From an uncultured Caryophanales bacterium (lineage in GTDB: Bacteria > Bacillota_I > Bacilli_A > RFN20 > CAG-826): a stretch of DNA of 40,812 nt. The notes under the pieces were generated by a model. It was not told where the DNA came from, searched no databases, and saw only the letters and a list, made by a program, of their open reading frames with translations. The stretch spans positions 1 through 40,812 of the forward strand of contig CAMOEI010000001.1 in assembly GCA_946612115.1 (NCBI GenBank). The letters are read 5' to 3'. The translations under genes were made by a program, and so were the position numbers. This document shows, in pieces, positions 10,579-15,659 of the stretch; within the stretch, counting starts at the first letter, position 1, and each line of letters begins with the position of its first letter.

Positions 10579-12774
10579 ATGAAAATAATTGAACTGTTAA
10601 TCGAAAGAAATAATTATTCCTTAAATCGTCCTTTTTCTTACCTTTATAGCGGTAATAAGAAAGTTGGAGAAGGATTTCGAGTATTAGTCACTTTTAATCA
10701 TCAATCTTTAGTGGGCTATGTCACTAAAGTCATTGAAACTAGTGAAACTAAACAAGAAATCGAAAATCGACTTGGTTTTTCTATTAGTGAAATTGATGAT
10801 GTTATCGATCAAAGCGCTTTATTAAGTAAAGATTTATTAGATTTAGCGGATCAAATCGCTGATTATTATCTCGCTAGTAAAATCTCTGTTTTACAAACGA
10901 TGCTTCCTCCTAGTTTATCTCCTAGAAGAAGTTCTTTAAAGGCTCCAAAAATTGCTTACACTCAATATGTTGAAATTAGTAAATATGATGAAAGTGATTT
11001 AACCTATAAACAAATTGAATTGTTAAGGCTTATTAAGGAAGAAAAGAAAGTCAAAAAAAGCGAGATTAAACAAGTCTCTATCTTAAATAAATTAATCGAA
11101 AAAGGTTTAGTGAAAATCACCAAAGAAGAAAAGAGTCGATTAGAATTACCTAATTACGACGTTACTCCTATCCCTAGTCTTACTAGTGATCAACAAAAAG
11201 TCGTGGATGAATTCTTATCTAGTGATGATGAAGTTTATTTATTACAAGGAGTTACTGGAAGTGGGAAAAGCGAAGTCTATTTATCTTTGTCTGAAAAATA
11301 TTTAAAAGACGGCAAATCAGTTTTGATGTTAGTGCCTGAAATTAGTTTAACTCCAATGATGGTGAGAAACTTTATTTCTCGTTTTCATGATAATGTCGCG
11401 ATTTTACATAGTGAGTTAACTCCAGCAGAAAAATATGATGAATATCGTAAGATCGCCAGAGGTGACGCAAAAATAGTGGTTGGTGCACGTAGTGCAATCT
11501 TCGCACCTTTACCTAATATTGGATTAATCATATTAGATGAAGAACATGTTGAATCATATAAACAAGATGTTTCTCCATTTTATCACGCTAAAGACGTTGC
11601 AATTTTAAGAGCGAAGGCCCATCACGCTAAGGTTTTATTAGGTAGTGCGACCCCATCTTTAGAAAGTCGAGCCAGAGGTCAAAAAGGTGTCTATCATCTT
11701 TTAAGATTAGATAAAAGAATTAATGAACAACCTCTTCCAAAAACCACAATCGTGAATCTATCTGATTATCATAATATCGATAAAGAAAGTTATATCTTCT
11801 CTCATAAATTAAGAGACGCGATAAAAATAAATCTAGAAAAAGGTAATCAAACGATTTTATTAATTAATCGTAGAGGTTTTTCTAGTTCGGTTTCTTGTAG
11901 GAGCTGTGGATATATTTTTAAATGTCCAACTTGCTCTATACCTCTAACCTACCATAAAAAAGATAGAATGCTTAAGTGCCATCACTGTAATTATGTTGAA
12001 GAGGCTGTTGATAATTGTCCGATGTGCGGCTCAAAATATTTGATGAGAAGTGGATTTGGCACTGAAAGAATTGAAGAAGAAGTCCATCGATTATTCCCAG
12101 AAGCAAGAACATTAAGACTCGATAGTGATTCTGCGAAAATTAGAACAAAGATTTCAAAAACAATTGAAGCATTCAGAAATAAAGAAGCCGATATTTTAAT
12201 CGGCACTCAAATGATCGCTAAAGGACATGATTTCCCTGATGTCACTTTAGTCGGCGTTGTTTTAGCGGATATCGGATTATCTTTACCAAGTTATCGAAGC
12301 GCTGAAAGAGTGTTTGAATTAGTCACTCAAGCAGTCGGTAGATGTGGTAGAGGAGAGAAAAAAGGTGAAGCGATTATTCAAACTTATTCTCCAAGTCACT
12401 ACGCAATCACTATGGCGGCAAGACAAGATTATGATGTTTTCTACGCTAGAGAAATGCAGGCAAGAAAAGTTCAAGGATATCCACCTTATATGTATCTTGC
12501 TAGTGTGACTGTTTCTAGTAAGAGTGAAGAGGCAGTTATCGATTTAACTTATCAATTAATTGATAAACTTAATTTTATGCTCAAAGATAATGCAGTTATT
12601 TTAGGTCCAACAACCCCTTATGTTCCATATCAAAATAATTCATATGTGAGACTAATTCTCATCAAATATAAAAACTATGATTTAGTTCATGATTCATTAA
12701 AGAAGATTCTAGATTCCAATAGCGGGAAATCTAATGTCTCTATCAGTATTAATATTGACCCTTACAATTTATAA
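10579..12774 (+). CDS. priA: Primosomal replication restart helicase PriA
   Basis: 3'-5' DNA helicase that reloads the replisome on stalled forks. The 731-residue protein has an N-terminal DNA-binding domain, Walker A GVTGSGKSEVY, Walker B ILDEEH, the GSATPSLES motif, then a zinc-binding insertion with paired cysteines (CRSCGYIFKCPTC and CHHC...CPMC), and helicase motifs V-VI around IGTQMIAKGHDFPDV and QAVGRCGRGEK. It is complete. It follows gmk after 9 bases; in Bacillus rpoZ and coaBC lie between them. Only a weak ribosome binding site is visible. Confidence 0.96.
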   Translation: MKIIELLIERNNYSLNRPFSYLYSGNKKVGEGFRVLVTFNHQSLVGYVTKVIETSETKQEIENRLGFSISEIDDVIDQSALLSKDLLDLADQIADYYLASKISVLQTMLPPSLSPRRSSLKAPKIAYTQYVEISKYDESDLTYKQIELLRLIKEEKKVKKSEIKQVSILNKLIEKGLVKITKEEKSRLELPNYDVTPIPSLTSDQQKVVDEFLSSDDEVYLLQGVTGSGKSEVYLSLSEKYLKDGKSVLMLVPEISLTPMMVRNFISRFHDNVAILHSELTPAEKYDEYRKIARGDAKIVVGARSAIFAPLPNIGLIILDEEHVESYKQDVSPFYHAKDVAILRAKAHHAKVLLGSATPSLESRARGQKGVYHLLRLDKRINEQPLPKTTIVNLSDYHNIDKESYIFSHKLRDAIKINLEKGNQTILLINRRGFSSSVSCRSCGYIFKCPTCSIPLTYHKKDRMLKCHHCNYVEEAVDNCPMCGSKYLMRSGFGTERIEEEVHRLFPEARTLRLDSDSAKIRTKISKTIEAFRNKEADILIGTQMIAKGHDFPDVTLVGVVLADIGLSLPSYRSAERVFELVTQAVGRCGRGEKKGEAIIQTYSPSHYAITMAARQDYDVFYAREMQARKVQGYPPYMYLASVTVSSKSEEAVIDLTYQLIDKLNFMLKDNAVILGPTTPYVPYQNNSYVRLILIKYKNYDLVHDSLKKILDSNSGKSNVSISINIDPYNL

Positions 12775-12810: not shown

Positions 12811-13263
12811 ATGATTAATGTAAATGTTTATGGTTTAGATCAATTCGTTGTTGGCGATTTATCTAAGGAAATTACCCCAAAATTAGCAAAGCTATACGAA
12901 GTTGAAGAAGATGATATTTTCTTCACCTCCACAAATAATATGATCTTTCACGATGGAATGGATCAAACTTCTTGGAGAACAATTATTGAAGTTAACGCTC
13001 CTAAAAAAGTTGAAGTCCTTCAAAATCAAGTTGTGGAATTACTACAACATTATTTCTCTTCAGTAGCGATTCACATCGAATATTTATTTAAATATTTCTC
13101 CGTTGATCATTACGTAAAAAGAATCAATCCAGATTACCCACTTTTCATGAGAGAAGATAATCTCGTTAATTTAGAAACCGAATACACCGAAGATATGGAA
13201 GAAGGAGAAGAGGAAGACCAAATCTACACCGGAAATATCTTTGATGATATGGATATTAACTAA
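12811..13263 (+). CDS. Hypothetical protein, DUF1904/tautomerase-fold-like, acidic tail
   Basis: A 150-residue protein from ATG 12811 (site GCGAGG upstream; an in-frame TTG at 12775 is less likely). Residues 1-115 resemble DUF1904, a small MIF/tautomerase-like family: a short start strand, a helix before VEEDDIFFTSTNNMIFHDG, then a strand WRTIIEVNAP followed by an amphipathic helix. The match is by pattern only and is not secure. The catalytic Pro1 of true tautomerases is missing (the second residue is Ile). The C-terminal 35 residues are very acidic (EDMEEGEEEDQ). It occupies the place where def and fmt stand in Bacillus, but resembles neither. A terminator follows. Confidence 0.55.
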   Translation: MINVNVYGLDQFVVGDLSKEITPKLAKLYEVEEDDIFFTSTNNMIFHDGMDQTSWRTIIEVNAPKKVEVLQNQVVELLQHYFSSVAIHIEYLFKYFSVDHYVKRINPDYPLFMREDNLVNLETEYTEDMEEGEEEDQIYTGNIFDDMDIN

Positions 13264-13296: not shown

Positions 13297-13333
13297 AAAA
13301 GAGAAAGTAGACACCTAGTCTATTTTTTCTTTT
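13297..13333 (+). terminator. Intrinsic terminator after the priA unit
   Basis: Perfect 16-bp inverted repeat, allowing G-T pairs: left arm 13297-13312, loop ACCTA, right arm 13318-13333. The A-rich outer left arm and T-rich outer right arm make it able to act in either direction. The -35 region of the next promoter begins within its right arm. Confidence 0.75.
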
Positions 13334-13357
13334 CATCTAACTTAGTTAGAGTATAAT
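13330..13357 (+). promoter_or_regulatory. Promoter of the rsmB-like/rlmN/prpC/prkC unit, leaderless
   Basis: -35 TTTTCA (13330-13335, 4 of 6 consensus), 16-base spacer, perfect -10 TATAAT (13352-13357). The expected start of transcription, about seven bases downstream, falls on the ATG at 13364. No Shine-Dalgarno sequence could fit. Confidence 0.6.
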
Positions 13358-13363
13358 TGAAAT

Positions 13364-14617
13364 ATGAACCAATTCGAACTCGCTAAAACTATCTTAACGA
13401 AAATCGTCCTTAAGGACATTCCTTTTACGATTGCTTTACGCGTTTCATTTAAGGAAAGCGATGTTGAACCTCAAATCAAATCTAATATCTCTGCCCTTAT
13501 TGGCTGTGAGCTTAGACATCATCTTATCTTTGATAATTTAGTGGAAAGATATGTCGGCGAAGTTGAATTTGAGAAGACTATTTATCTACGATTTGCTTTA
13601 GCAAATTCATTATTCCTAAAACGATTTAATGAAGAAGAACTTTATGAACTTTCTAAGGAAGATATTGATGAAGAAAAAGTTGATTACATTCGTGAATTCG
13701 CTTTATCGACATTAGAAATCATTCCTTCTGAACTTGATAAATTCTCCCCTGAATATTTATCGATGAGATATAACACTCCTACATGGGTGGTGAGGATGTG
13801 GCAAAAGCAATTTGGTAAATCAATTGCCTTTAAGACTTTAAAAGTTAATTATCGTCCTAGTGTTTCCACAGTGAGAATTGATGAAACTAAAGTCGATAAA
13901 GAAGCTTTTTTAAGAAAACATCCAGATTTCTCGACCTCCACAGTGGATAATATCTTGGTTTTCCATGGACGAGGGACACCAAGTTATCTAGAAGAGTTTA
14001 AAGACTATCGTATTTTCTATATGAAAATGGCGACTAAATATCTTCTTGATCAATTAGACCTTGATCCAATTAAAAAATATGCGGTTTATAGCGATGTTCC
14101 AAATAACATCTATCTAGATTTGTATACTAGATTCGGCAAAGAACTCAAATGCGATTATATTTGTAATCATACAAAAGCGTATTTTGAAACTAAAAAGGTT
14201 TTAGAGGATTTATCTATACCTCATTTATATCTATATGAAGCTGGATATTCTAGTGTTGTTACTTGTTTATCAAGTAAAGCTAATATTTTCTTCTGCATGC
14301 CTAAAAATTCAACTTTTGATTTATTTAGAAGTACTCCTGATTACTTTTTAAGAGTGAAACAAGATGAACTCTCTAATCTTATTGAAAATGAATCTAAAGC
14401 TTTAGAGGAATGCTCTAAACAAGTGGAATTAGATGGGGAACTCATTTATATGGTTCCAACATTATCTAGAAAAGAAACAAGCACTTTAATCGCTAATTTT
14501 TTAATCAATCATAAAGATTATGAATTAATCGAAGAGAAACAGTTCTTCCCTTATGAAGTTTTTGATTCTTGCTTATATTACGCAAGACTTAGAAAAGTGA
14601 AATTAGAAAATGATTAA
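13364..14617 (+). CDS. RsmB-like protein with degenerate methyltransferase domain (probable pseudoenzyme)
   Basis: A 417-residue full-length relative of RsmB, the 16S rRNA m5C967 methyltransferase. Residues 1-125 have the helical NusB-like character; 127-172 match the linker (FSPEYLSMRYNTPTWVVRMW, then the T-(I/V)-R strand); the C-terminal pattern TPDYF...LDGELIYMVPTL...YYARLRK matches the catalytic domain. The key residues are gone: motif I (usually DxCAAPGGKT) reads YAVYSDVPNNIY at 239-250, motif IV (DAPCSG) reads CMPKNS at 311-316, and motif VI (STCTL) reads MVPTL at 363-367. Both catalytic cysteines and the SAM glycines are missing. Position directly before rlmN is that of rsmB in Bacillus. 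It may be a non-enzymatic rRNA-binding protein. Confidence 0.7.
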   Translation: MNQFELAKTILTKIVLKDIPFTIALRVSFKESDVEPQIKSNISALIGCELRHHLIFDNLVERYVGEVEFEKTIYLRFALANSLFLKRFNEEELYELSKEDIDEEKVDYIREFALSTLEIIPSELDKFSPEYLSMRYNTPTWVVRMWQKQFGKSIAFKTLKVNYRPSVSTVRIDETKVDKEAFLRKHPDFSTSTVDNILVFHGRGTPSYLEEFKDYRIFYMKMATKYLLDQLDLDPIKKYAVYSDVPNNIYLDLYTRFGKELKCDYICNHTKAYFETKKVLEDLSIPHLYLYEAGYSSVVTCLSSKANIFFCMPKNSTFDLFRSTPDYFLRVKQDELSNLIENESKALEECSKQVELDGELIYMVPTLSRKETSTLIANFLINHKDYELIEEKQFFPYEVFDSCLYYARLRKVKLEND

Positions 14618-15659
14618 TTTATACGGAGTACAATTAGAAAAGCTTAAAGACTTAATGGTGAGTTATGGTCAAAAGCCATATCGAGCGATTCAGTTATATA
14701 CTTGGCTATATGAAAAGAAAGCCACATCATTTGATGAAATGACCGACATCTCTAAATCATTCAGAGATGTTTTAAACGCAGATTTCATTTTAGACATTCC
14801 AAAGATCGCTATTAAACAAGTTAGTAGTGATGGGACGATTAAATTACTTTTAGAACTTGAAGATGGCTACAAGGTAGAAACCGTTTTAATGAGATATAAC
14901 TACGGTAATGCGGTCTGTGTTTCTAGCCAAGTTGGTTGCAACATGGGGTGCAGTTTTTGTAGTAGTGGAGTATTAGGAAAACAAAGAAATCTAAGACCAG
15001 AAGAAATGGTTGGACAAGTCTTAGTGATCAATAATCTTCTTAGAGAAGAAAATAGAGGTCAAAGAGTCTCTCATATCGTTGTTATGGGAACTGGAGAACC
15101 TTTTGATAATTACGATAACGTCATTGATTTTATTAGAATTGTTAACGCTCAAAAAGGGCTCGCTATTGGGGCTAGACACATCACTGTTTCTACATGTGGC
15201 ATTCCAGATAAAATAAGAAAATACGCTAGTGAGGGACTACAAACTAATTTAGCGATTTCTCTACACGCTCCTAATAATAAACTTCGTAACGCTTTAATGA
15301 AGATTAATAAAGTTTATCCATTAGAAGTTTTAATGGAAGCAGTTAAAGATTATGAAAGTGTTGCTGGTAGAAGAGTGACATATGAGTACCTTCTTTTAGA
15401 AGGTATTAATGACACCAAAGAATGTGCCCAAGAATTAATCGAATTAATTAAAGGCACTAATGGATATGTCAATTTAATCCCATATAATGAAACAAATAAA
15501 AACGACTATAAACGTAGTAGCGGTAATCGCGTTCACGCATTTTTAGATATGTTGATGAAAGGTGGAGTAAAAGCCACTATTAGAAAAGAGTTTGGTAGCG
15601 ATATTGATGCTGCTTGTGGACAACTTCGCGCTAAAGAAAAGGAGAGAAACGATGAGTAA
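14610..15659 (+). CDS. rlmN: Dual-specificity RNA methyltransferase RlmN
   Basis: Radical-SAM enzyme making 2-methyladenosine at A2503 of 23S rRNA and at A37 of some tRNAs. The 349-residue protein has the 4Fe-4S motif CNMGCSFC, the GxGEP-type SAM segment VVMGTGEPFDNYDNV, the ISLHAPNN segment, and the C-terminal catalytic cysteine in DIDAACGQLR that forms the methyl-carrying intermediate with the second conserved cysteine (STCGIP). It starts 8 bases before the end of the rsmB-like gene and overlaps prpC by 8 bases, so translation is coupled. Confidence 0.96.
   Translation: MINLYGVQLEKLKDLMVSYGQKPYRAIQLYTWLYEKKATSFDEMTDISKSFRDVLNADFILDIPKIAIKQVSSDGTIKLLLELEDGYKVETVLMRYNYGNAVCVSSQVGCNMGCSFCSSGVLGKQRNLRPEEMVGQVLVINNLLREENRGQRVSHIVVMGTGEPFDNYDNVIDFIRIVNAQKGLAIGARHITVSTCGIPDKIRKYASEGLQTNLAISLHAPNNKLRNALMKINKVYPLEVLMEAVKDYESVAGRRVTYEYLLLEGINDTKECAQELIELIKGTNGYVNLIPYNETNKNDYKRSSGNRVHAFLDMLMKGGVKATIRKEFGSDIDAACGQLRAKEKERNDE

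Follow-up and report, generated by a model that had tools for sequence, protein, structure and literature searches.

In most bacteria, the product of rsmB is an enzyme that methylates ribosomal RNA. What, then, is encoded by the open reading frame at the rsmB position (13364–14617, + strand) of the window, the 40,812-nucleotide stretch of DNA from an uncultured Caryophanales bacterium that we analyzed, and why has it been kept? A preliminary description, made from the sequence alone, had proposed that this frame specifies a full-length RsmB homologue that has lost its SAM-binding and catalytic residues and is maintained for a non-catalytic task. We find that the gene, which spans 417 codons without an internal stop and faces no competing in-register frame on the opposite strand, encodes a catalytically dead RsmB orthologue of 417 amino acids, which we call pseudo-RsmB.

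Identification as an RsmB orthologue is based upon the agreement of sequence profile, fold, and locus. First, the NCBIfam RsmB model NF011494 matched the window protein with an E-value of 8.7e-19 at 67.6 bits, a score below the equivalog cut-off of 319, and other NCBIfam RsmB models also gave significant matches far under their cut-offs. The Pfam families PF01189 and PF22458 matched below cut-off as well, covering only the ferredoxin-like domain and the C-terminal half of the methyltransferase. A profile built from 39 relatives found the Fmu/RsmB structures 2yxl (1.6e-19) and 1sqf (1.1e-12), and hhalign against live RsmBs of the same order returned a probability of 100% and an E-value of 1e-55 over 421 columns. 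Second, an AlphaFold2 model of the window protein was confident across all domains (pLDDT 93.8, pTM 0.89), and its best match in a fold comparison, rather than a protein of a different family, was E. coli Fmu (Foldseek TM 0.80; Z 35.7 over 400 residues). The model matched 1SQF/1SQG over residues 1–412, with NusB-like, linker/ferredoxin-like, and Rossmann domains in the order found in RsmB. Third, comparison of gene layouts across relatives showed that the gene lies in a priA-X-rsmB-rlmN arrangement orthologous to the RsmB locus, with priA (10579–12774, +) as the upstream and rlmN (14610–15659, +; TIGR00048, 435.5 bits) as the downstream syntenic anchor. We conclude that the window gene descends vertically from the rsmB of its lineage and has become a pseudoenzyme. 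We rejected RsmF as its identity: RsmF models are not its best match and its motif IV is not of the RsmF type, and a separate paralogue in the same genome (G000:C15) is RsmF (NF008898, 225.9 bits). Replacement of NusB was also rejected; the window protein does not match the NusB model TIGR01951, and the sole match to that model in the genome is a separate nusB gene (G000:C1:174698).

The sites at which RsmB binds SAM and attacks cytosine are gone. In a 109-sequence alignment that included 87 distinct dead-clade orthologues from three families of the order (f1, f3, and f5), the motif-I SAM loop (residues 239–250; 14078–14113, +), DxCAAPGxK in live enzymes, reads YSDVPNNI in the window protein. 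Motif VI (residues 361–367; 14444–14464, +) changes from YSTCTL to YMVPTL, so that residues 364–367 are VPTL in place of TCTL and Pro365 occupies the column of the nucleophile. Motif IV (residues 310–317; 14291–14314, +) changes from DAPCSG to MPKNST (M312-P313-K314-N315-S316-T317). The preliminary description had correctly noted the loss of the motif-IV cysteine, but its reading of a PK in place of PC was one column out, as Asn315 stands in the cysteine column and P313 lies under the alanine. The motif-I Asp, Cys, and Lys and the motif-VI Cys were present in none of the 87 dead-clade sequences and in all live relatives, and therefore their absence is not a matter of chance. The acidic residue after β2 and the motif-IV Asp were likewise absent from all 87. 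At the motif-IV cysteine column, six of the 87 retained Cys, and Ser was the commonest substitute. No nearby cysteine was conserved across these 87 sequences, which speaks against displacement of the catalytic cysteines to neighboring positions. As judged from the alignment and the structural model, pseudo-RsmB should neither bind SAM nor form a covalent adduct with cytosine, and for this reason would be unable to make m5C967 by RsmB chemistry.

Where the chemistry has been lost, the architecture has been retained with altered charge. The all-helical NusB-like N-terminal domain comprises residues 1–120 (13364–13723, +; modeled helices between residues 3 and 115), the net basic linker and ferredoxin-like domain residues 121–205 (13724–13978, +), and the Rossmann methyltransferase domain, whose fold is kept and whose active site is lost, residues 206–417 (13979–14614, +). 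Columns preserved across the alignment include P139, W141, D337, G358, Y362, E371, and the linker motif NTPxWxxxMWxKxxG, and these look structural. By net counts of charged residues, rather than surface maps, the NusB-like domain carries −6.7 charges per 100 amino acids in the window protein and −1.6 in the dead clade, compared with a mean of +4.8 in live RsmB, whereas the linker/ferredoxin part shifts from −0.6 in live enzymes to +3.9 in the dead clade. The NusB model recognizes the N-terminal domain of live RsmB and no longer recognizes that of the dead clade.

How widely is the dead form distributed? Orthologues with 54–60% identity to the window protein were present in nearly all genus-mates, and the search for relatives with the same losses found them throughout families f1, f3, and f5, in 112 genomes at more than 100 bits. 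Most of the genomes compared are metagenome-assembled; the named relatives carry labels such as uncultured Erysipelotrichaceae, Bacillales, or Bacilli, and many come from rumen or other gut samples. Canonical RsmB scoring above the NCBIfam cut-off occurred in eight genomes of families f2, f6, f7, and f8, and these four sister families, together with outgroups, retain the full catalytic set. Family f4 lacks RsmB at the corresponding locus. In one f4 genome, the place of rsmB, between a DUF1904-like gene and rlmN, is taken by thyX (L233:1438-2283); a 477-residue frame at the rsmB position of another f4 locus (L234) was considered as an extreme RsmB and rejected, having no convincing family match. 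A tree of rlmN by itself gave too little resolution, and we therefore used a tree of priA, rlmN, and rsgA, in which every dead-form genome fell on one branch (SH-aLRT 99). This placement suggests that catalysis was probably lost in a single event within the clade, and the fall of identity among members to about 20% suggests that the event is old. Six loci (L042, L043, L045, L047, L048, and L049) encode short live RsmB/F-type methyltransferases of about 300–310 residues that lack the NusB-like domain; they belong to genus f1g6, which has no pseudo-RsmB, and genus f3g50, which has both proteins.

A survey of the class, in which 218 genomes were scanned and 20 loci were read, revealed a second dead RsmB in another order. 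Two genomes of family f23 (G198 and G243) encode rsmB products of 359 and 364 residues that lack all three motifs, are 33% identical to each other, and lie in a PHP-rsmB-rlmN-rsgA locus. The linker/ferredoxin region is shortened in both (L277:3296-4372 and L278:3166-4257). In these genomes, which are 95 and 98% complete, the dead RsmB was the only RsmB/F-family protein found. The f23 proteins are most closely related to live RsmBs of their own family, and two independent changes are needed to fit the tree. Sequence comparison thus indicates that dead RsmB has two origins, one in the clade of f1, f3, and f5 and one in f23.

Multiple observations support maintenance of the protein for a non-catalytic purpose, as had been proposed. 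For close pairs of orthologues, whole-gene dN/dS values calculated by the Nei-Gojobori method, with some pairs near saturation, ranged from 0.04 to 0.13, were low in the NusB-like, linker/ferredoxin, and dead methyltransferase parts alike, and can be compared with values of 0.01–0.13 for the adjoining rlmN. These values show, indirectly, that purifying selection keeps pseudo-RsmB for a binding function. An open frame, purifying selection, and catalytic residues missing across orthologues together mark the protein as a pseudoenzyme. The losses are shared by three families, the dead form arose twice, and the gene has been cleanly deleted elsewhere: some clade genomes (G023, G134, and G151) lack it and can therefore dispense with it. 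Outright loss of RsmB has also been described in several Mollicute sub-groups (PMC4014445), and together with the clean deletions this means that a protein without its chemistry is not kept as a matter of course. Because the catalytic parts are lost and yet the gene is intact and under strong selection, pseudo-RsmB probably has a second, non-chemical job in ribosome building.

The gene also probably has its own promoter. The preliminary description had assigned one, and a consensus scan by itself did not bear this out (1 match found, 1.6 expected). Recurrence makes it probable: a TATAAT −10 box (13352–13357, +) with a six-base spacer to the ATG is exact in 11 of the 16 genus loci listed and has one mismatch in two more, and among fetched loci six bases is the commonest spacing, contributed nearly entirely by pseudo-rsmB. 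This arrangement predicts a leaderless transcript that would start at the ATG. Upstream, a hairpin seen by eye (TAGAC-ACCTA-GTCTA followed by six T residues; 13308–13328, +) is a possible terminator of the preceding gene; similar hairpins occur in genus relatives, and the scan did not flag this one. Elsewhere in the dead clade, pseudo-rsmB often begins a few bases before the upstream DUF1904 frame ends.

We found no support for changes in the target or in other rRNA enzymes as the cause of the loss of catalysis. Disappearance of the target base is not supported: position 967 of 16S rRNA is C in three genus-mates (G006, G011, and G017) and in all but one matched 16S sequence of the order, and a pattern search of the window's own genome gave no 16S match. 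The exception (L105; G131:C4:67697-67727) carries A in place of C967, differs again a few bases further downstream, and was the only match of this kind. Loss of the neighboring modification was rejected because RsmD, which makes m2G966, is retained in nearly all genomes, including that of the window, and acquisition of RsmF was rejected because RsmF occurs in live-RsmB and dead-RsmB genomes alike.

What might the non-chemical job be? A 2026 single-molecule study reported that E. coli RsmB and RsmD together reduce a misfolded class of the nascent 16S 3′ domain in which H30 is accessible and do so independently of SAM; its authors propose that the helix-31 loop is transiently sequestered (PMC13004024). 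Human NOP2/NSUN1 has a part in pre-rRNA processing that does not require catalysis (PMC9561284). By analogy with E. coli RsmB and RsmD, the role of assembly chaperone or rRNA-binding factor suggested in the preliminary description is plausible, and we tentatively favor the reading, at somewhat less than an even chance, that pseudo-RsmB is kept for the SAM-independent action of RsmB on helix 31 of nascent 16S rRNA. In this mechanism, a protein with the RsmB fold but no capacity to hold SAM or form the cytosine adduct would, with RsmD, bind helix 31 transiently and thereby keep the 3′ domain from misfolding while the 30S subunit is assembled. Loss of chemistry with retention of fold, twice, fits a SAM-independent assembly role. 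Several points count against the helix-31 reading. The acidic NusB-like domain would weaken RNA binding of the RsmB type, while the linker/ferredoxin part has become basic, and if pseudo-RsmB binds RNA, it would do so differently from RsmB; the E. coli effect was seen with RsmB and RsmD tested together; and the gene is dispensable in the genomes with clean deletions.

Pseudo-methyltransferases can support active partners, and pseudo-RsmB might instead serve another protein as a scaffold or non-catalytic subunit, the candidates being RsmF, the adjoining RlmN, or the protein encoded directly after priA, a DUF1904/tautomerase-fold protein with an acidic tail (12811–13263, +; PF08921, 24.4 bits against a gathering threshold of 24.1; top fold match 4m1a). 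We regard a scaffold role as unlikely, though deserving of weight. The DUF1904 tail is conserved and ends in (D/E)EIYTGDIF. Nearly every dead-clade genome carries the gene, in most cases directly upstream of pseudo-rsmB; it occurs weakly in family f4 and is absent from every canonical-RsmB genome of the order. The basic linker/ferredoxin part could offer a contact for its acidic tail (median pI 4.4), and pseudo-rsmB often extends into the start of rlmN. However, DUF1904 remains beside priA where pseudo-RsmB has relocated (f5g35, G038) and persists where pseudo-RsmB has been deleted, no DUF1904 was seen at the two f23 loci, and RsmF is common to live and dead genomes. Moreover, co-occurrence is weak evidence because DUF1904 and pseudo-RsmB both arose on the same single branch. 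Being present without pseudo-RsmB and more tightly linked to priA, DUF1904 is weakened as an obligate partner, and we regard it as a marker co-inherited within the clade and only possibly a partner.

It is improbable that the protein was recruited to work unrelated to RsmB and outside 16S maturation, with the NusB-like domain serving protein contacts. The inverted charge of that domain and its loss of recognition by the NusB model would suit such a change, but RsmB's linker motif and C-terminal helix-strand region persist, with all six preserved columns noted above, and neither fold nor locus has changed. That the gene is the remnant of a lost enzyme in decay is very hard to credit; catalysis is gone, and gene loss is documented in Mollicutes and in a few clade genomes, but dN/dS is well below 1, frames are open across three families in more than a hundred genomes, and the promoter is conserved in the genus. 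Continued methyltransferase activity with displaced cysteines or other chemistry, which the intact Rossmann fold and the six motif-IV cysteines might suggest, is the remotest of these prospects given the universal absence of the SAM loop, the acidic residue after β2, and the motif-VI Cys, and the want of any conserved cysteine nearby.

Pseudo-RsmB shares domain order, fold, and the priA/rlmN locus with RsmB/Fmu, the 16S m5C967 methyltransferase (1SQF, 1SQG), but differs in lacking the SAM loop and the PC and TC cysteines, in its acidic NusB-like domain, and in an NCBIfam score far below cut-off. NOP2/NSUN1 belongs to the same superfamily and has a catalysis-independent role in ribosome biogenesis, but retains its active site, whereas pseudo-RsmB has lost it in a whole clade. 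KsgA, which methylates bacterial 16S rRNA, is reported to act in subunit biogenesis as well (PMC3534330); it differs from pseudo-RsmB in methyltransferase family and site and is conserved as an active enzyme. NSUN4, an m5C-family protein found with MTERF4 in a mitoribosome assembly complex (4FZV, 7O9K; fold match Z 23), differs in being an active enzyme with a partner protein and in acting on the other subunit. We found no RsmB pseudoenzyme described in the open-access literature.

For annotation, the name RsmB assigned by locus or by a weak profile score does not imply m5C967. More broadly, rRNA methyltransferases are widely conserved although their knock-outs are nearly silent, and one way to explain this is that the protein matters and the methyl group does not. 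It is possible, and we offer this with reserve, that selection has twice, in separate lineages, kept RsmB for SAM-independent RNA folding rather than for m5C967, which would make pseudo-RsmB a natural separation-of-function mutant fixed clade-wide in Bacilli. Evolution appears to have run the experiment, removing the chemistry twice and keeping the protein.
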